Notes under the pieces: model-generated
What the model was told of the DNA's origin: nothing
The model's input: the letters and a program-made list of their open reading frames with translations, nothing else
Databases searched by the model: none
Program-made: the position numbers and the translations under genes
DNA from: an uncultured Pelagibacteraceae bacterium
GTDB taxonomy: Bacteria; Pseudomonadota; Alphaproteobacteria; Pelagibacterales; Pelagibacteraceae
Length of the DNA: 64,000 nt
Reading direction: 5' to 3'
NCBI GenBank assembly: GCA_902536975.1
Contig: CACAZG010000002.1
Coordinates: 1-64,000, forward strand
Shown here: in pieces, positions 20,292 to 31,624 of the stretch
Layout: each line of letters begins with the position of its first letter
Position numbering within the stretch: the stretch's first letter is position 1

Positions 20292-22397
20292 ATGAACTCA
20301 TCAACAGAAATAATACTTTTATACATTATAGCAGCTGGGATTATATCAATCATTTATGGTTTTTTTACAGGTCGAAATATTTTAAACTCAAGCTCTGGCA
20401 ATGCTAAAATGATAGAAATAGCATCAGCTATTCAAGAGGGCGCTCGTGCATATTTAAACAGACAATATAAAACTATTGCTATAGTTGGGGTTGTTGTTTT
20501 AGTTATTATATCTGTCGCATTTAGTCCTTTGGTGGGTTTAGGTTATTTAATTGGAGCTGCATTATCTGGAATAGCTGGTTATGTTGGTATGCTTGTTTCG
20601 GTCCAAGCTAACGTAAGAACTGCTGAGGCTTCAAGAAAAAGTCTAGCAAACGGTTTATCAATTGCATTTAAATCTGGAGCCGTAACCGGTATGTTGGTTG
20701 CTGGATTAGCTTTGTTGTCAATTGCAGTATATTATTATTTTCTTGTTAAGATTGGTATAGATGAGAGAGAAATAGTTAATGCTTTAGTTGCTCTAGGATT
20801 TGGTGCTTCACTTATATCTATATTCGCTAGGTTAGGTGGAGGAATTTTTACTAAGGGTGCAGATGTTGGTGCTGATTTAGTTGGAAAAGTAGAAGCAGGA
20901 ATCCCTGAAGATGACCCTAGAAACCCAGCTGTAATTGCTGACAATGTTGGTGACAATGTTGGTGATTGTGCTGGTATGGCAGCCGATCTATTCGAAACAT
21001 ATGCTGTAACAATAGTTGCTACAATGGTTCTATCGTCAATATTTTTTATCGGTGATTTTAGTATGATGATTTATCCTTTAGCAATTGGTGGCGCATGCAT
21101 ACTTACATCTATTTTAGGAACTTTTTTTGTAACTCTTGGAAGCGATAAGAATATAATGAAGGCTATGTATAAAGGATTTGTCATAACTGCTATAAGTTCT
21201 CTCGTTATTCTGTATCCAATTACTAAATATGTAATTGGTTTTACTACTGAGTATATCGTAAATGATAAATCATTTACTGGATTAAGCTTATATTTTTGTG
21301 GAATAATAGGTCTTATTATTACAGGATTAATAATCTGGATTACTGAATACTATACAGGTACAGATTATAGACCAGTTAAAAGTGTAGCTCAGTCTTCAAC
21401 AACTGGACATGGAACTAATGTTATTCAAGGATTGGCAGTTTCAATGGAAGCAACTGCTATCCCTGCATTAATCATTGTTGGTGGAATATTATTAACTAAT
21501 CATATTGCTGGCCTGTATGGAATTGCTATTGCAGTTACCACAATGCTTGCGCTTGCAGGTATGGTTGTAGCTTTAGATGCATATGGTCCAGTTACTGATA
21601 ATGCTGGTGGAATTGCAGAAATGTCAAATCTTCCAAAAAACGTTAGAAAAACTACTGATGCATTAGATGCTGTAGGGAATACAACAAAGGCAGTAACAAA
21701 AGGATATGCTATCGGGTCAGCTGGACTTGGAGCTTTAGTTTTATTTGCTGCTTATACAGAGGATATTAAACATTTTTCTAAAGTCGCTGGTTCTAATTTA
21801 GAAGGAATTATAGTTACATTTGATTTATCCAATCCATTTGTTGTTGTAGGTTTATTAATTGGTGGAATGCTTCCGTATTTATTTGGATCTATGGGTATGC
21901 AAGCAGTTGGAAGAGCAGGTGGTGCAGTAGTTATTGAGGTTAGAAGACAGTTCAAAAAGATACCTGGTATAATGAAGCGTAAAGCTAAGCCAGATTATGG
22001 TAGATTAGTCGATTTATTGACTAAAGCTGCGATCAAGGAAATGATAATTCCATCATTGTTGCCAGTTTTATCTCCTATAGTGCTTTACATAATTATTTAT
22101 TTTATTGGTGGACAAGTAGCGGCTTTATCAGCAGTAGGTGCGATGCTTTTAGGAGTAATTATTACTGGATTATTTGTTGCTGTTTCGATGACAGCCGGAG
22201 GTGGAGCCTGGGATAATGCTAAAAAATATATAGAGGATGGTAAATTTGGTGGAAAAGGCTCTGAAGCTCATAAAGCAGCTGTAACTGGAGATACAGTTGG
22301 AGATCCCTACAAAGATACAGCTGGTCCTGCGGTAAACCCAATGATAAAAATTACAAATATTGTTGCACTATTGTTATTAGCTGTAATTGCAGGTTAA
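20292..22397 (+). CDS. hppA: Membrane-bound proton-translocating pyrophosphatase
   Basis: 701 aa polytopic; [50 protein letters not shown] substrate motif. Confidence 0.97.
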
Positions 22398-23365
22398 GAA
22401 ATAATCTTTTTATACTTGCCAAAATTAGTTATCCAGGTATTTTCCCAGTCTTCGTTGATTGTTGGTACTGATCTGGAAATGTGATGGCTTAGTGAACCTA
22501 CAGGAGCAAAACAATTAACTCTTTTGTAAATTTCATGTAAAGGTTTCTCAAAAGGTTCATTAATTGATTCTCCAACTTTCCTAATTCCTTCTCTATTTTT
22601 TTTTAAGATTTCTTTAGTAAACATAATGGTCAATAGAGTTTCGCTTACTTTTCTCCATCTGTAATTATTGCCAATAAGTAAAGTTGTTTCATAAAGGGAG
22701 TCATAAAAAAAAGGATAATCACTAGGACACAAAATTATATCATTTTTAATTAACGAAGAAATTCTACTAAAAGTATAAATAATTTCCTGAATACTCTCTT
22801 TTTCAAAAAGGTAATCATCTTCAATAAAAAAAATTAAATCTTCTGCTTTTTCAGCTTGATCACAGCATTCTAAATATGTTCCTCTATTTCCACTAATTTT
22901 AGTTTTATATTTGATAACTTTAAATTTATCTGAACTTAAAATTTTAATAATTTTATCATCGAATGTATCATTAGATTTATCAGCAATTAAATTAATTGTT
23001 ATATCTAACTCATTATTATTTAAAAAGTGTAGAATGGACTCCTTCAAACTAATTAAACATACGCAAATTAAGGTTTCTTTATTAATGTTAGGAACAATTC
23101 TTTTCCATGAATCAGTCGAATTCCATAGGTTATTACTTGGAGAATATCTAAAATAAATATCAAGTTTTTTAACTTTTCTTGTTAAATCTAGATATCCAAG
23201 TGAGTAATTAAAAGATTTTTTGTTTAATTTAACAATATTTCCACTAGTAGATTTATAATTTGGATTTATTATATTTAAAGTTTCCTTTTCATAGGCATAA
23301 ACATTAAGGAGTTTGAGTAAAATTCTTTTGAGTTTATTTTGTTTGTTGTATTTTCTAGTGAACAT
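22394..23365 (-). CDS. Glycosyltransferase (GT-A-like)
   Basis: [17 protein letters not shown] acidic DxD-like motif; surface-polysaccharide island context. Confidence 0.6.
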
Positions 23366-23431
23366 TTAAATATTTTTTATAAATTTACTAATTTGTTTAT
23401 ATTAATTATATTTAAATGTTTAAACTATTAT

Positions 23432-23713
23432 ATGAATTATTATGTATATATTATAATAACTAAAAAAATTAATAGATATATAACTTATGTGGGATATACA
23501 AAAAACTTAAAGAAAAGAATATTATTGCACAACTCTAGCAAAGGAGCCAAATTTACAAAGGGAAATAAATGGTATCTTATTTACAAAAAAACTTATAATT
23601 CAAAGATTATTGCAATGCAGGAAGAATATAAATTAAAAAAAAATTATAAATTAAGGTCAATCATTAAAAAAAAATTTCTAATCAATGAAAATATCGATTT
23701 TACTACCATATAA
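23432..23713 (+). CDS. GIY-YIG domain nuclease (UPF0213-like)
   Basis: YVYIIITKKINRYITYVGYTKNLKKRILLHNSSKGAKFTKGNKWYLIYKKTY; start at in-frame ATG 23432. Confidence 0.75.
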   Translation: MNYYVYIIITKKINRYITYVGYTKNLKKRILLHNSSKGAKFTKGNKWYLIYKKTYNSKIIAMQEEYKLKKNYKLRSIIKKKFLINENIDFTTI

Positions 23714-25799
23714 AGAAAACTTTTCACCAGAATACGCTGGTGCTGTTTCCCTATTTGTAAAAGATACTGTGAAAATAAGTTCGTTCAAAAATAGTATTAA
23801 AGTTTACGGAAATACAAATTATAAAAAAGGTTTTAATATTAAATATCAAAATTTAAATCTAAAAAAAAAATTTTTAAATAGTACAAGTAAACTTTATGTA
23901 AAGAGTTTTTTAAATGGTGAATTAAAAAGAAAATCAGATTTAATTGAGATACATAATAGGCCACTTTACGTAAAATATATTAATGAAAAAATTAATACAA
24001 ATTTGGTGTTATATTATCACAATGATCCTTTATCTATGAGTGGATCAATTTCAGAAGACGAAAGATATTTTCTATTGGAAAGATGTAAATTTATCATTGT
24101 TATAAGTGAATGGATTAAAAAAAGATTTTTAAAAAATTTAAAAGTTGATCAATCTATTTTAAGAAAAATAATTGTTATCCCTCATTCAACCAATAAAATT
24201 AATAAATTACATATAATTAACAAAAAAAATAAAACTATCATATTTGTAGGAAAATTAAATTCACAAAAAGGTTATGATATTTTTGGAAATGTTATATTAA
24301 AAATTCTTGATAAAAATAAAAAATGGAACAGTATAGTTGTAGGTGATGAAGAAAGAGAGAAACTTACATTTGAGCATCCGAGATTAATAGTTAAGGGATT
24401 TATCGAACATAACAAAGTTATAAAACTATTTGAAAAATCAAGTATTGCAGTGGTTCCATCGAGATGGGAAGAACCTCTTGGAAGAACCGGTCTTGAAGCA
24501 TCAAGTAGAGGATGTGCAACAATCGTTAGTAATAGAGGTGGATTACCAGAAACTATTACAAATGGCATAATTTTAAAAAAATTGAATGAAAAGGAACTAT
24601 TCAAGCAAATTCAAATTTTGATTGATAACTATAAATTAAGAAAAAAATTACAAATTAAATCAATTAAAAACTTTAAACTAGATCATAAATTTATTGCAAA
24701 CAAAATTGATATTGTAAGACGTAAGATCAATGAACAATTCTTTTTTAACATAGATAAAAAAAGTAAATTAAAAATAATACATATTACAAATTTTAATCAA
24801 AGGTATTTCGGAAGACTTCATTTTAACACAGGTACACGAATTAATAATGGCTTGATAAGACTTGGTCACAATGTTTTAAGCATATCAGACAGAGATTTAG
24901 TTAGTTTTTCAAAATCAATCAGAGACTATAATGGAGCCAAATTTTTAAATAACTTAGTAGAGAAAACTATATATAATTTTAAACCAGACTTAGTTATTTT
25001 AGGTCATGCTGATAGAGTTAATTCAGACATGTTATCTGATGTGAAAAATAAATTTCCATCTATAAAAACTTCACAATGGTTTTTGGACCCTATAACTAAA
25101 AAGGGTCCTGATTATATTAAAAATAAAAATAGAATTTTAGATAAAGAGAAATCTTGCGATACAAATTTCCTAACAACAGACCCAAAATCATTGGATTTTT
25201 CGTTAAATAATTCTTTTTATATCCCAAATCCTTGTGATCCATCAATTGATAAACTACAAAACTTTAATCAAAATCCTAGTTTAGATATTTTTTATGCAAT
25301 TAGTCATGGTGTTCATCGTGGAATTTTAAGGCCAGGAAAACTCGATGAAAGAGAAGTATTTATTAAGAAGCTTATAAATAGGTGTAAAGATATAGAATTT
25401 GATATATATGGTATGTTTGATAGACAACCAGTTTGGGGTAATGATTTTATTGAAATTATTTCAAACTCCAAAATGGGTTTAAATTTAAGTAGGGGAAAAC
25501 CCGTAAAATATTATAGCAGTGATAGAATAGCACAACTCATGGGCAACGGACTTTTAACTTTTATTGATGAAAAAACTAAATATAACGATTTTTTTTCAAA
25601 CAATGAATTGGTGTTTTATAAATCCATTGATGATTTATCTGAAAAAATTAAAAAATTTCAGAAAGATGTTCGAAATTTAAAAAAAATTGCCAAAAATGGA
25701 CACCACAAATATCATAAATATTTTAACTCAACAAAAGTTGCAAATTACATAATAGACAAAACTTACGGAATAAATTCGAAATACTATTGGGATAATTAA
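23685..25799 (+). CDS. Two-domain glycosyltransferase: N-terminal GT4-like plus C-terminal CgeB-like domain
   Basis: 704 aa; IIFVGKLNSQKGYDIF...VPSRWEEPLGRTGLEASSRG (GT4); C-terminal NSKMGLNLSRGKPVKYYSSDRIAQLMGNGLLTFIDEKT (CgeB-like). Confidence 0.78.
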   Translation: MKISILLPYKENFSPEYAGAVSLFVKDTVKISSFKNSIKVYGNTNYKKGFNIKYQNLNLKKKFLNSTSKLYVKSFLNGELKRKSDLIEIHNRPLYVKYINEKINTNLVLYYHNDPLSMSGSISEDERYFLLERCKFIIVISEWIKKRFLKNLKVDQSILRKIIVIPHSTNKINKLHIINKKNKTIIFVGKLNSQKGYDIFGNVILKILDKNKKWNSIVVGDEEREKLTFEHPRLIVKGFIEHNKVIKLFEKSSIAVVPSRWEEPLGRTGLEASSRGCATIVSNRGGLPETITNGIILKKLNEKELFKQIQILIDNYKLRKKLQIKSIKNFKLDHKFIANKIDIVRRKINEQFFFNIDKKSKLKIIHITNFNQRYFGRLHFNTGTRINNGLIRLGHNVLSISDRDLVSFSKSIRDYNGAKFLNNLVEKTIYNFKPDLVILGHADRVNSDMLSDVKNKFPSIKTSQWFLDPITKKGPDYIKNKNRILDKEKSCDTNFLTTDPKSLDFSLNNSFYIPNPCDPSIDKLQNFNQNPSLDIFYAISHGVHRGILRPGKLDEREVFIKKLINRCKDIEFDIYGMFDRQPVWGNDFIEIISNSKMGLNLSRGKPVKYYSSDRIAQLMGNGLLTFIDEKTKYNDFFSNNELVFYKSIDDLSEKIKKFQKDVRNLKKIAKNGHHKYHKYFNSTKVANYIIDKTYGINSKYYWDN

Positions 25800-26789
25800 A
25801 TGAAAATTTGTTTTTTAGATAAAACAGATTTTAAATATTCTTTTAAAGACAAGTATTCACCAAAACTTAGAGGAGCCGAGACAACTCTAATTAATTTAAG
25901 TTATAATTTAAAATTATTAGGTTGTAGTATTTATATCTTTAATAATTGTTCAAATGAATATAATGAAAATAATTATTACTGGACAGATTTAAGTAATATA
26001 AAATCAAATAAAATTATTTTTGACATTGCAATATCAAATGGAGATATCAATTTATTGGATAATATTATTTCTAAAAAAAAATATGCCATTTCATACAGCC
26101 TTCAAAATTTAGAAAAATTTATTCGAAAAAAACAAGTAAAGGCTTTTATAAAAAATAAACCTAAAATTGTTTTTATTGGAAAATATCATAGTTCAAAAAG
26201 GCCATTACTAACAAGAATTTTTGGACATAAATATTTAATATTAGCTGTAGATGACATTTTTAATAATACAAAAATAGATAATAAGATTGATAATTATAAA
26301 GCTATATTTACTTCTAGACCTGACAGAAACCTTAAAATACTGCTTGATATTTGGAGTAGCAAAATACATTCTAGAAATACAAAATATAAACTCTATGTCA
26401 CTCCATCGAAAGAAATTTTAAATTACAAAAGTAACAACATTTTTCCAAGAAATATGATCGATCAAAAAGACTATTTGAATAATATTAAAAACTCTAGACT
26501 AATGTTGATACCTGGTCATAAAGCTGAGCTTTTTTGTTTGGCGGCTGAAGAAGCTAGAGAACTTTGTATCCCAATTGTAACAATGGGTATTGGATCATTA
26601 AAAGAAAGAGTAGAGCATAATGTTACTGGGCTAATTGCAAGAGATAAAAATGAATTTGCTGATTATGCTATTAAGTTATTTGAAAATGACGAATTATGGA
26701 ATAAGATTAGAACAAATCTTCTTAAAAAAAGAGGTATTAGTAATTGGCAATCTTCTGCTAAAAAATTTTTAGAGGAAATTAAGAGCTAG
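25800..26789 (+). CDS. Glycosyltransferase (GT4-like)
   Basis: LRGAETTLINLSYNLKLLGCSIYIF...LIPGHKAELFCLAAEEARELCIPIVTMGIGSLKERVEHNVTGLIA. Confidence 0.72.
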   Translation: MKICFLDKTDFKYSFKDKYSPKLRGAETTLINLSYNLKLLGCSIYIFNNCSNEYNENNYYWTDLSNIKSNKIIFDIAISNGDINLLDNIISKKKYAISYSLQNLEKFIRKKQVKAFIKNKPKIVFIGKYHSSKRPLLTRIFGHKYLILAVDDIFNNTKIDNKIDNYKAIFTSRPDRNLKILLDIWSSKIHSRNTKYKLYVTPSKEILNYKSNNIFPRNMIDQKDYLNNIKNSRLMLIPGHKAELFCLAAEEARELCIPIVTMGIGSLKERVEHNVTGLIARDKNEFADYAIKLFENDELWNKIRTNLLKKRGISNWQSSAKKFLEEIKS

Positions 26790-27818
26790 ATGAAAAAAAA
26801 AGCAATTATTACAGGAATAATGGGGCAAGATGGTGCATATCTTGCTAAATTTTTATTAAAAAAAAATTATGATGTTTATGGTACTTATAGGAGAAATTCA
26901 AATTTAGATATTAATAGACTTAAAAAACTCAACATTTATAATAAGATCAAACTTCTAGATTTAGAAATAACAGAATTTGCATCAGTTAATCACACGATAA
27001 AAAGAATCTTACCTGACGAAATATACAATTTAGCAGCCATGTCTTTTGTAGGTAGTTCATTCAATCAACCAATTTATACATTGAATACAAATACTATAGG
27101 CGTTTTAAACTTTTTAGAAACATTAAAAAGTACAAAAAAAAATATTTCTTTTTATCAGGCCTCAACATCAGAAATGTTTGGAAATTTTACCAATAATGCT
27201 ATTGATGAAAATACACCTTTTGATCCTGCTAGTCCTTATGGAATAAGTAAAGTAACTTCACATTTTTTAGTTAAATTATATAGAAAAGCTTTCAATTTGA
27301 ATTGTTGCTCTGGCATTTTATTCAATCATGAGTCACCACTAAGGGGTGAAGAGTTTGTAACTAAAAAAATAGTTAAACAACTATGTGAAATTTTAAAAAA
27401 AAAAAGGAATGTAATTAAAATAGGTAATGTATATTCTAAAAGAGATTGGGGATATGCACCAGAATATGTTGAAGCTATGTGGAAAATGCTTCAATTAAAA
27501 AAGAAAAATGATTTTGTAATTGGTACTGGAAAAACCTATACAATAAAATATTTTATAAATGAGACTTGTAGATATTTGAAAATCCCAATTAAATGGAAAG
27601 GCAAAGGATTAAATGAATACTGTCTGAATAAAAAAAATAATAAAAAAATTATTGTAATTGATAAAAAATATTATAGACCGTTAGATGTCTATAGTTTAAA
27701 AAGTAAGCCTAGTAGAGCAAAAAAAATACTTAAGTGGAGTTATAGGACAAATTTAAAAGGATTGATAAAACAAATGTGTGACTCAGAGTTGAAAGAGTTG
27801 AATGTCAAAATCAAGTGA
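26790..27818 (+). CDS. gmd: GDP-mannose 4,6-dehydratase
   Basis: ITGIMGQDGAYLAKFLLKKNYDVYGTYRR...YNLAAMSFVGSSF...ASTSEMFG...PYGISK...LFNHESPLRGEEFVTKKI. Confidence 0.9.
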   Translation: MKKKAIITGIMGQDGAYLAKFLLKKNYDVYGTYRRNSNLDINRLKKLNIYNKIKLLDLEITEFASVNHTIKRILPDEIYNLAAMSFVGSSFNQPIYTLNTNTIGVLNFLETLKSTKKNISFYQASTSEMFGNFTNNAIDENTPFDPASPYGISKVTSHFLVKLYRKAFNLNCCSGILFNHESPLRGEEFVTKKIVKQLCEILKKKRNVIKIGNVYSKRDWGYAPEYVEAMWKMLQLKKKNDFVIGTGKTYTIKYFINETCRYLKIPIKWKGKGLNEYCLNKKNNKKIIVIDKKYYRPLDVYSLKSKPSRAKKILKWSYRTNLKGLIKQMCDSELKELNVKIK

Positions 27819-28833
27819 AAAAAAAATATTAATCTTAAAAAATGACAGGGCAGGTGATCTATTTACATCTTTAAAGCTGATTTCATCGTTGTCAAAAGAT
27901 AATATTATCAAAATCTATTTATCTGAATTGAATTATGGTTTTTCTTTTTTTTTCAAAAATTCCAATGTAAGGAAAATAAATTTAAACCCTAATTTATTAG
28001 ATAAAATGGCTATATTATTAGATATTGTTAAAAGTAATTACCGAGAAATTTACATACTTACACCAAAGAAGTTCTACTTTGTTTTACCATTAATATTTAG
28101 AAAAATAAAATTTTATGCGATTGTTTATAATAATTACTCTAAACTAAGACCAAACAAATTTTTACGAAAATTCATATTTAAATTTAACATAATTTATAGG
28201 GATAAAATAAATAAGCATTCATATAGAAATGCACAGTTAAACCTTTTAGATGATGGGACTAAAATAGATAATCAATTTCTTAATTTAAATATACCAGATC
28301 TATCAATTGATAAGAAAAAACTTTTACCAAAAAATTTTATTTTTTTTCAATTTAGGTATAAATTCTTTGAAATACTAGAATGGGACTTCAATCAAATTAG
28401 TGAATTTTTATACCTTTTAAACAATAAATATGAATATGTTTTATTTTGCTCTGATAAAGAAATCAATATAAATACAAAAAAATACGTAGATTTCTTCCTA
28501 AAGGAATTTTCAAGTATAGATTTAAACAATCTTAAAACTGTAAATAAAAATAGCAAAAGCATAATTTATTTAAATGATTTAGATTCTTTTGACATGTTTC
28601 ATATAACTAAGTTAGCTAAATTTAACATTGGCCCACATGGAATAATAAGTCATCTGTCTTATTTTCATAAGGTTCCGTCTTTAAATTTATTTAATTTCGA
28701 AATCTTTAACAAGGCTGATTTTGTTCATCAGAAAATAAGTTTTTCTGAATGGTATAAAGATATGAACTTTAACTTTTCATTTTTAAATAAAAACTTCTCA
28801 AAAACAAAAAAAAAAATTATGAAAAATATATAA
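27802..28833 (+). CDS. Glycosyltransferase family 9 (heptosyltransferase-like)
   Basis: ILILKNDRAGDLFTSLKLISSL N-terminus typical of GT9; lipopolysaccharide-type context. Confidence 0.6.
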   Translation: MSKSSEKKILILKNDRAGDLFTSLKLISSLSKDNIIKIYLSELNYGFSFFFKNSNVRKINLNPNLLDKMAILLDIVKSNYREIYILTPKKFYFVLPLIFRKIKFYAIVYNNYSKLRPNKFLRKFIFKFNIIYRDKINKHSYRNAQLNLLDDGTKIDNQFLNLNIPDLSIDKKKLLPKNFIFFQFRYKFFEILEWDFNQISEFLYLLNNKYEYVLFCSDKEININTKKYVDFFLKEFSSIDLNNLKTVNKNSKSIIYLNDLDSFDMFHITKLAKFNIGPHGIISHLSYFHKVPSLNLFNFEIFNKADFVHQKISFSEWYKDMNFNFSFLNKNFSKTKKKIMKNI

Positions 28834-28857
28834 TCCATTATAATAGAAATACTTTTA

Positions 28858-29367
28858 ATGCTTAAAAAAACTTTTTTTTTAGATAGGGATGGGGTTATTA
28901 ATGAGGATAATGGTTATGTAACTAAAGTTTCTCAATTTATTTTCACCAGAGGCGCATGTGAAGCTATCAGATATTTAAATATGCAAAATTTTCTAGTAAT
29001 TATAATTACCAATCAAGCGGCTATTGGAAAAAACTTAATGTCCGAGGATGATCTTTTTAAAATTCACAAATACATGAAGGATTATTTATTAAATTCTTGT
29101 CAAGCACATATTGATGATATTTTTTATTCACCATACTTTAAGGATTCTAAAATACCTTTATATACACAAAATCAAAATGATAGAAAACCGGACAATGGCC
29201 TTATCATAAAAGCAATAGAAAAATGGAATGTTGATATAAAAAATAGTTTTTTTATAGGTGATAATACCACTGATAAAATTGCTGCTGAAAAAAGTAATAT
29301 TAAATTTTATTTTAAAGAAAATAATTCTTTATATGATCAAATTAGAAATATTATTGAGAATATATAA
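28858..29367 (+). CDS. HAD-IIIA family phosphatase (GmhB/HisB-like)
   Basis: FFLDRDGVINEDNGYV...IITNQAAIGKNLMSEDDL...RKPDNGLIIKAIEKW...FIGDNTTDKIAAEKS. Confidence 0.85.
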   Translation: MLKKTFFLDRDGVINEDNGYVTKVSQFIFTRGACEAIRYLNMQNFLVIIITNQAAIGKNLMSEDDLFKIHKYMKDYLLNSCQAHIDDIFYSPYFKDSKIPLYTQNQNDRKPDNGLIIKAIEKWNVDIKNSFFIGDNTTDKIAAEKSNIKFYFKENNSLYDQIRNIIENI

Positions 29368-30321
29368 TTAAATGTTTATTTTATTTAATGCATTATTTTT
29401 AAAGATATTTGCTTCTTTAATATATCTTCTAACCATTTGTGTTGTTTTATGACCGGTCATTGCCATAATACTTCGTTCATCAGCTCCAGATTCTGCAGCA
29501 ACAGTTGCAAAACCTGATCTTAGGCTGTGACCTGCAAAATTTTTATTTTCTATTCCTGCTAAATTTAAATATTTTTTTATTATTAAGACTACTGATTGGT
29601 CAGTTAATCTTTTTTCTGTTAAAACCGATCCTTTAGAAAACTTTCTAAAAACAGGTCCTGTCTTTATTTTTGAAATGTCTAACCATTTTTTAAGGTTAAT
29701 TACTGGACAATAGTTCTGATCATTAAAATAGGGCAAACCTTTGAGCATACCTTTACCAAATTGATCAGTCTTTGATCTCTTAATAGTGATTTTAAGACCC
29801 TCATTTACAAATTCTAAATCTTCATGGTCAATTGAAACCAGTTCTGTTCTTCTAAATCCTCCTCCAAAACCTATTAATATTATTGATTTATCTCGTAGTT
29901 TATTAATATCTGTAATCCTTTGTTCATCTATTACATTAATTATTGATTTTAAATGACTGATTAATAATGGTTTTTTACCTGTTTGAACACTTCCTTTAAC
30001 TCTTTTTATTCCCATTAAATTTTCAACAATAATTGGATGTTTAGAATCTAAATAGTGTCCTTTAAGCTTGTGAACCATACTAATAGATACCAATCTTCGT
30101 CTTAAAGTGCTGATTTTTGAGTTTTTTGATAGATGAGTTATATATAAGGAAACAATTTTTGGTTCAGTTGGAAGTGAATTTAAGCCATGCTTTGCACAAA
30201 AAGCTCCAAAGTCTTTAAAGTCAGATTTGTAAGCTCTTAGAGTGTTATTGGCTTTAGAGCTTTTTAGATTATTTAAAGTTGCTTCGTGAAGTAATTTTAA
30301 ATCTGTTGTCAGTTCACTCAT
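29368..30321 (-). CDS. Tyrosine recombinase / site-specific integrase
   Basis: Core-binding domain plus catalytic residues GGFRRTEL, HSLRSGF, GHKTTQMVRRYI (R...K...HxxR...H...Y). Confidence 0.9.
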   Translation of the reverse strand: MSELTTDLKLLHEATLNNLKSSKANNTLRAYKSDFKDFGAFCAKHGLNSLPTEPKIVSLYITHLSKNSKISTLRRRLVSISMVHKLKGHYLDSKHPIIVENLMGIKRVKGSVQTGKKPLLISHLKSIINVIDEQRITDINKLRDKSIILIGFGGGFRRTELVSIDHEDLEFVNEGLKITIKRSKTDQFGKGMLKGLPYFNDQNYCPVINLKKWLDISKIKTGPVFRKFSKGSVLTEKRLTDQSVVLIIKKYLNLAGIENKNFAGHSLRSGFATVAAESGADERSIMAMTGHKTTQMVRRYIKEANIFKNNALNKINI

Positions 30322-30325
30322 ATTA

Positions 30326-30358
30326 TAACTATTGATAACAATTAATTATCACTAGTAA
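30326..30358. repeat. Imperfect inverted repeat 13-7-13 next to recombinase start (possible recombination or operator site)
   Basis: taactattgataa - caattaa - ttatcactagtaa; arms match at 11/13 positions. Confidence 0.45.
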
Positions 30359-30406
30359 TAATATAACTCATTTTATATGTCAAGCATTTAATGTAAAAGT
30401 TTCTCA

Positions 30407-31082: not shown

Positions 31083-31343
31083 CCCTGTTAAAAACCCACA
31101 AATTTCAACCATAAAGTGATACATACAACCTACTCTATCTGATATTGTTCAAAATGAATTAAGAGGCAACTCTTAACTGACCAGCTGGGGAAAAACCGAG
31201 AGGTTCAAGCCCAGAGGGCAGAAAGCTCTACAGAGTAGCGCTAAAATAGTAGAGTGGAAGGCATGGCGGTAGCGCATAAAACGACGTGCCAAAAACTACT
31301 GTTCTTTGTGCCTGAAAAGGTACAAGGAAACAGGGTTTTTTTT
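31083..31343 (+). ncRNA. Putative structured non-coding RNA or 5' leader, family not recognised (5' end uncertain)
   Basis: Locally GC-richer than the AT-rich surroundings; hairpin ttaagag-GCAA-ctcttaa (31159-31176); nested hairpin ctggg...aacc-GAGA-ggtt...cccag (31185-31214); ctctac/gtagag (31226-31231/31249-31254); ggcatg/cgtgcc (31260-31265/31285-31290); long-range CTACTCT/AGAGTAG and CCCTGTT/AACAGGG pairings; terminator at 3' end. Confidence 0.7.
31299..31343 (+). terminator. Rho-independent terminator of the putative ncRNA/leader
   Basis: ctgtt-ctttgtgcc-tgaaaa-ggtacaagg-aaacag hairpin (31299-31333) followed by ggTTTTTTTT (T8 at 31336-31343). Confidence 0.85.
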
Positions 31344-31348
31344 CTGTT

Positions 31349-31624
31349 ATGATCCTAAAAGGCACTAAATTTCAATTAAAAGTTTGGAAATATCTTAAAA
31401 AAATACCAAAAGGTCAGTTACGAACTTATTCTGATGTAGCAAAGGCTATAAATAAACCAAAATCAGTAAGAGCTGTGGCAAATGCAATAGGAAAGAACCC
31501 ATATGCCCCAAAAATACCTTGTCACAGAGTAATCAGGTCGGATGGTTCATTGGGCGGCTATTCAGGCAAAGGTGGGATAAATACTAAGAGAAAATTACTC
31601 AAATCAGAGGGTATTTTGCTCTAG
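31349..31624 (+). CDS. ogt: Methylated-DNA--protein-cysteine methyltransferase (minimal, DNA-binding/active-site domain only)
   Basis: 91 aa; FQLKVWKYLKKIPKGQLRTYSDVA...NPYAPKIPCHRVIRSDGSLGGYSGG-type region with PCHRV active-site Cys. Confidence 0.9.
   Translation: MILKGTKFQLKVWKYLKKIPKGQLRTYSDVAKAINKPKSVRAVANAIGKNPYAPKIPCHRVIRSDGSLGGYSGKGGINTKRKLLKSEGILL

Follow-up and report, generated by a model that had tools for sequence, protein, structure and literature searches.

The results of our analysis indicate that a palindrome and the Cre-family tyrosine recombinase gene adjoining it are likely to be the means by which SAR11 (Pelagibacteraceae) resolves chromosome dimers. A narrower claim appears more probable still, indeed highly so: that the recombinase acts on the palindrome as its crossover site, for whatever use. 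The palindrome lies in the 64-kb stretch of DNA analysed here (the window). An earlier note had described a 33-mer, taactattgataa-caattaa-ttatcactagtaa, at 30326-30358, with 13-nt arms matching at 11/13 positions, and had proposed that it is a lox/dif-like site just upstream of the recombinase, which could be either the crossover site of that enzyme or an autoregulatory operator. The sequence confirms where the 33-mer lies, 5 nt from the ATG of the recombinase (its A at 30321, minus strand). On the minus strand, to which we assign the site, the 7-nt spacer reads TTAATTG and is asymmetric. The 13-7-13 palindrome is real, but its extent had been understated: the full dyad, at 30320-30364 (assigned to neither strand), has 19-nt arms matching at 17/19 positions around the 7-nt spacer and overlaps the beginning of the start codon as well as the -10 box. 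The 33-mer is unique, with 1 copy only in the window when up to 3 mismatches are allowed and only short chance pieces resembling it in the remainder of the source genome (786 kb; a Pelagibacter-like SAR11 draft, 58% complete). In favor of a chance palindrome in AT-rich DNA is that the dyad as first drawn is not rare: 11/13 dyads with a 7-nt spacer are expected about 6 times in the window, and 7 are observed vs. 6.0 in dinucleotide shuffles. The 17/19 dyad with 19-nt arms, by contrast, was reproduced by 0/20 shuffles, and the site is kept in hundreds of genomes, a control pattern in none. Genus-wide conservation, co-varying arms, and the comparison of the extended dyad with shuffles together refute the chance explanation, to which we assign a negligible probability. 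We conclude that conservation, rather than rarity of the 13-7-13 dyad, is the decisive evidence for the palindrome.

Of 399 genomes of the genus, 264 have the exact core, GATAATTAATKGTTATC, and the matching genomes listed have exactly 1 copy each; a reversed control pattern gives 0 matches over the 399 genomes. In the window the core is GATAA-TTAATTG-TTATC (30334-30350, minus strand), of which the GATAA and TTATC ends, set by the search anchor, are near-universal among loci. Of about 200 loci examined, nearly all have the core upstream of the recombinase start, and the few exceptions seen vary in spacer only; a scripted scan of loci finds none in the family without an ATAA-N7-TTAT core. The position of the site before the recombinase is kept family-wide, down to 53-60% protein identity, and the upstream flank varies among relatives while the dyad stays constant. 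The palindrome is thus kept with the recombinase among relatives, at a frequency far above chance; the absence of such conservation, which had been named as grounds for abandoning the proposal, is not what we find. To describe variation within the site we used 125 distinct sites anchored on GATAA-N7-TTATC, a choice that fixes the inner ends and the 7-nt spacing, so that the 7-nt gap between ATAA and TTAT in 125/125 sites follows from the anchor. The spacer is TTAATTG in 76 of these sites and TTAATGG in 39 (together 115/125), and the consensus upstream of the recombinase is GATAA-TTAAT(T/G)G-TTATC; a conserved, asymmetric 7-nt spacer is as would be expected for a crossover region. The outer arms form two symmetric types, A (TTACTA.. 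/ ..TAGTAA; 98/125 sites) and B (TTCC..GGAA; 26/125 sites), and therefore left and right arms co-vary; outer-arm changes between subclades are symmetric, and arm position 8 is complementary in 125/125 sites vs. 67% expected with shuffled pairing.

The gene at 29368-30321 (minus strand) encodes a recombinase of 317 aa in which the catalytic residues R157, K184, H265, R268, H291, and Y300 are present. The recombinase was detected in 142/201 sampled genomes of the genus (single copy, fragments aside), in about 188/223 genomes of the window's family (Pelagibacteraceae), and in 11/11 family genomes that consist of a single contig; a PF00589 search of near-complete genomes of the genus matches essentially one protein, namely the recombinase beside the palindrome. 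About 13% of near-complete family drafts are without a detected recombinase; because these drafts come from single cells or metagenomes, and because the gene lies next to a hypervariable island, assembly loss is a likely cause. In a profile search against solved structures, Cre ranked first (5e-28, 101 bits), followed by XerD (71 bits), an XerC-like archaeal enzyme (62 bits), and XerH (38 bits), and the Cre-type SKT motif (K184) and GHS.R box align in the recombinase. The enzyme belongs neither to the XerH family (38 bits vs. 101 bits for Cre) nor to the XerS family (51.5 bits with the NCBIfam XerS model vs. a cut-off of 267), and the profile and family scores rule out that it is a divergent XerC or XerD. 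In a phylogenetic tree, the SAR11 proteins form one clade nested among plasmid recombinases, with XerC and XerD far outside, the Cre branch itself being long and unsure in its placement. We conclude, on the basis of profiles and phylogeny, that the recombinase is a Cre-family, plasmid-side tyrosine recombinase.

In the genomes sampled, the site lies at the replication terminus, opposite dnaA. In complete genomes it falls at 0.44-0.57 of the circle from dnaA. A terminus test with 20 samples of 20 kb per genome, applied to five complete genomes, one of them of another genus, shows in 5/5 genomes that, of 20 rotations, the one placed exactly at the site gives the strongest purine/pyrimidine polarity switch (permutation p of 0.0003-0.013 per genome), the five genomes being related, so that their agreement does not amount to five independent tests. 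The bin of the GC-skew switch contains or adjoins the site in four genomes (G215, G012, G082, and G230); in G226 the site is only the second-best GC-skew switch, the best lying elsewhere. A sister family of the same order (25 genomes) has two canonical Xer proteins, scoring about 307-326 and 244-258 bits with the XerD model, and has no ortholog of the palindrome-side recombinase. In the window's family, profile searches with PF00589 and TIGR02225 find no canonical XerC or XerD, and TIGR02225 gives only about 70-87 bits (cut-off 329.6), a score that comes from the palindrome-side recombinase. The earlier note had proposed comparison with the organism's true dif site. Since the family has no XerC or XerD, the palindrome is very probably the functional dif itself. 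FtsK with a gamma domain is present in 8/8 genomes. KOPS-like octamers, GGGNAGGG, are too few (15 toward, 5 away) to support a polarity.

Comparison with known terminus systems places the SAR11 module among those with a single recombinase. It resembles XerCD/dif in terminus position, low G+C, ATAA..TTAT inner ends, intergenic location, and single copy number, but XerCD/dif has two recombinases, XerC and XerD, and a 28-bp site of 11-6-11 geometry, whereas SAR11 has one recombinase, neither XerC nor XerD, and a spacer of 7 nt rather than 6 nt. The features of a single-recombinase dif/Xer system are found in the sampled genomes: a single conserved tyrosine recombinase, encoded on the chromosome and intact in its catalytic residues; a single-copy, intergenic, AT-rich dyad at the terminus; and FtsK with a gamma domain. 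XerS/difSL of streptococci and lactococci and XerH/difH of epsilonproteobacteria likewise pair a single recombinase with a genetically linked terminus site, and they work with FtsK and stand in for XerCD (PMC5357621, PMC2731167); the SAR11 system differs from them in that its enzyme is on the Cre/plasmid side, its arms are near-perfectly symmetric, and its site lies within the promoter of the recombinase gene. XerL/dif of Legionellales, from a lineage once believed to have no dif/Xer system, also has a single recombinase and long symmetric arms, and a phage-like element there has a dif mimic (PMC9765430); XerL and dif are >400 kb apart in L. pneumophila and the SAR11 pair is adjacent.

Several relatives of the recombinase have sites of the same kind. 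Close relatives are scarce in Alphaproteobacteria beyond the family (14 of about 286 genomes), and the best outside matches are plasmid-borne (Alicyclobacillus, 43%; Paenibacillus, 41%), some plasmid relatives adjoining ParA or toxin-antitoxin genes. A GATAA-N6/7-TTATC dyad (in one case GACAA-N6-TTGTC) is found near the recombinase on 7/12 plasmids, 6 of the dyads being upstream within about 900 nt and one about 1.1 kb off. The Alicyclobacillus plasmid dyad is a perfect 13-7-13; those of Protochlamydia and Runella are 16-7-16 and 17-7-17; those of Sporosarcina and Iodobacter have 6-nt spacers; that of Chromobacterium lies further from the recombinase; and that of Rickettsiales Ac37b has GACAA/TTGTC ends. 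Five chromosomal relatives have a dyad upstream of the recombinase, each with its own 7-nt spacer. L343 (G730), a chromosomal relative from Alphaproteobacteria that the tree places closest to the SAR11 clade, has GATAACTGTAATTATC, with an inner core identical to that of SloxP; the sequence lies upstream of the matched region by about 300 bp.

Cre/loxP of phage P1 and SCre/SloxP are alike with the SAR11 module in having a Cre-family enzyme and an inverted-repeat site near the recombinase, P1 lox being upstream of cre. SloxP, which contains GATAA-CTGTAA-TTATC and matches a plasmid of Shewanella sp. ANA-3 at 100%, has the GATAA/TTATC core in common with the SAR11 site, with a spacer of 6 nt vs. 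7 nt in SAR11; SCre was not found within 3 kb of SloxP in the plasmid region examined. The arms of loxP are unlike those of the SAR11 site, and the SAR11 recombinase, in contrast to both systems, is a chromosomal single-copy core gene at the terminus, with no extrachromosomal replicon. In the features that mark Cre/lox systems, SAR11 agrees: the closest solved tyrosine recombinase is Cre, the arms are symmetric, the spacer is asymmetric, and the site is near the recombinase gene. The lox/dif-like reading first proposed is supported by the Cre-like profile, by dyads with the same core in plasmid and viral relatives, and by the dif-like position at the terminus.

The site overlaps the recombinase promoter. 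A -35 box, TTGACA, lies at 30378-30383 (minus strand), and a -10 box, TATTAC, at 30355-30360 (minus strand), with 17-nt spacing, overlaps the outer left arm of the dyad; TATAAT is found at equal 17-nt spacing in many B-arm relatives. TTGAC is upstream of the core in 154/154 distinct sites, exactly 33 nt upstream in 142 of them. Recombinase bound at the left arm would lie over the -10 box and would probably repress its own gene; with this overlap, some of the conservation may stem from regulation. The promoter geometry, fixed in 154/154 distinct sites, and the overlap with the -10 box speak for an operator only, a reading in which the recombinase or another dimeric regulator binds the palindrome for promoter control and strand exchange takes place elsewhere. 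Against an operator only are that the site is single-copy, such that the genome has no second crossover site of the same sequence; that plasmid dyads can sit hundreds of bases from the gene; that conservation extends to the asymmetric 7-nt spacer; that the site is at the terminus; and that TTGAC occurs at the host distance from viral site copies in just 8 of 357 site-strands, the viral copies being without the host promoter, which argues against a purely regulatory role. We consider an operator only to be unlikely. As between a crossover site and an operator, the two uses originally suggested, conservation and terminus position support crossover, and the overlap of the left arm with the -10 box of the conserved promoter makes an operator possible as a second role. 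An RNA element, in which the dyad is a hairpin in the mRNA leader serving as attenuator or in translation control, would fit a palindrome located between promoter and start codon. The -10 overlap, though, predicts that transcription begins within the left arm and hence that the mRNA would include only part of the hairpin, and plasmid and viral copies keep core and spacer outside a leader context; an RNA element is very improbable.

Copies of the site are also found in viruses. Scans of IMG/VR identify at least 120 contigs with B-type arms, with a 7-nt spacer in 98/123 sites among the matches listed, and 58 contigs with A-type arms; a control palindrome of equal length and similar composition identifies 20 contigs and shows no preference for a 7-nt spacer. 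A viral scan with the exact core returned several arm-less matches that are probably due to chance, and our conclusions rest on the arm-based scans and the control. Fourteen viral contigs found by the site alone also encode a recombinase of the Cre-like family (among the matches listed), usually with the site 36-470 nt from the recombinase start; recovery of recombinase contigs by a site-only scan is a blind confirmation of the pairing of site with enzyme. In these 14 contigs (L425, L433, L439, L457, and ten others), some GC-rich and some AT-rich, the recombinase is near a TTCCGATAA-N-TTATCGGAA site, and the contigs are probably phage-plasmids with their own Cre/lox systems. A partial match, the 56-kb viral contig L118, was rejected as an unrelated GC-rich element without the site.

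Among the matches listed, 103/154 other site-bearing contigs have proteins in common with the cultured pelagiphages HTVC100P and HTVC106P, and in 13 viral contigs an A copy and a B copy lie less than 200 bp apart and differ in spacer. The pelagiphage dyads (HTVC100P, MW273924, 34320-34351; HTVC106P, MN698244, near 35412) lie in a non-coding stretch upstream of terminase genes, often as two adjacent copies that differ in arms and spacers (for example in L207, L218, L229, and other IMG/VR contigs), and adjacent A-arm/B-arm pairs match the two host arm types. A phage-encoded integrase as the cause of the phage copies was rejected: PF00589 is absent from 18/18 phage or viral records tested, HTVC100P and HTVC106P included, most records being fragments, and HTVC010P-kind pelagiphages have no tyrosine recombinase in the records examined. 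HTVC010P-kind pelagiphages may use the host Cre-like enzyme by way of the site copies that they carry, either for integration at the terminus or for resolution or circularisation of the phage genome, a proposal that we make tentatively and hold somewhat less probable than its negation. No lysogen was found at the host site, there being no listed genome with two exact cores and no host junction among the viral contigs, and integration is therefore put forward simply as a possibility.

The locus adjoins variable DNA. Glycan and sugar-nucleotide genes at 22394-29367, directly downstream of the recombinase, are highly variable among relatives, and 202/204 loci retain a short MGMT-like gene (31349-31624) on the opposite flank; with one flank variable and the other near-constant, the site-recombinase module lies at the border of a hypervariable island. 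An IMES-2 RNA (Rfam RF02035, 161.6 bits) lies at 31152-31292 (plus strand), about 0.8 kb from the site, and 13/20 relatives' loci have IMES-2 upstream of the recombinase at a distance of about 1 kb or less. The near-constant upstream neighbor (202/204), the highly variable downstream genes, and the phage-borne copies of the site would suit a recombinase that is an island or phage integrase, with the palindrome as attachment site, driving exchange of the adjacent hypervariable glycan genes. This is contradicted by the lack of a second site copy in any matching genome listed, by the status of the recombinase as a family-wide single-copy core gene at the terminus, by the phage-ORF matches listed for the flanks, which show no phage gene beyond recombinase homologues, and by the viral contigs, none of which has the host promoter-site junction. 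An integrase seems slightly less probable even than an operator only.

According to the hypothesis that the palindrome and recombinase resolve chromosome dimers, one recombinase protomer would bind each arm, two per site; two occupied sites on a dimeric chromosome would synapse at the terminus, where FtsK may bring them together at the septum and so aid resolution; and strand exchange across the asymmetric 7-nt spacer would turn the dimer into monomers. Recombinase at the left arm and -10 box would probably also shut down its own gene, which makes autoregulation at the site probable. The module probably derives from plasmid-type Cre/lox multimer-resolution systems and has probably taken the place of XerCD/dif.

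A 2009 survey of Xer systems by Carnoy and Roten listed Pelagibacter as without a dif/Xer system (PMC2731167), and we found no earlier description of a SAR11 dimer-resolution system in the open-licence literature. In E. coli, Cre-loxP can replace XerCD-dif at the terminus in a manner dependent on KOPS-guided FtsK, and the engineered dif::loxP strain shows that such a swap is possible (PMC2680272). A 2025 paper suggests that non-XerCD systems do not readily gain FtsK control (PMC11724359), and SAR11 would be a natural test case. For phage biologists, the results offer a concrete site in abundant pelagiphages. For SAR11, the most abundant bacterial clade of the ocean and one previously said to have no such system, the results suggest that the dimer-resolution function would have been swapped, not lost, with a plasmid-type Cre/lox module at the terminus.
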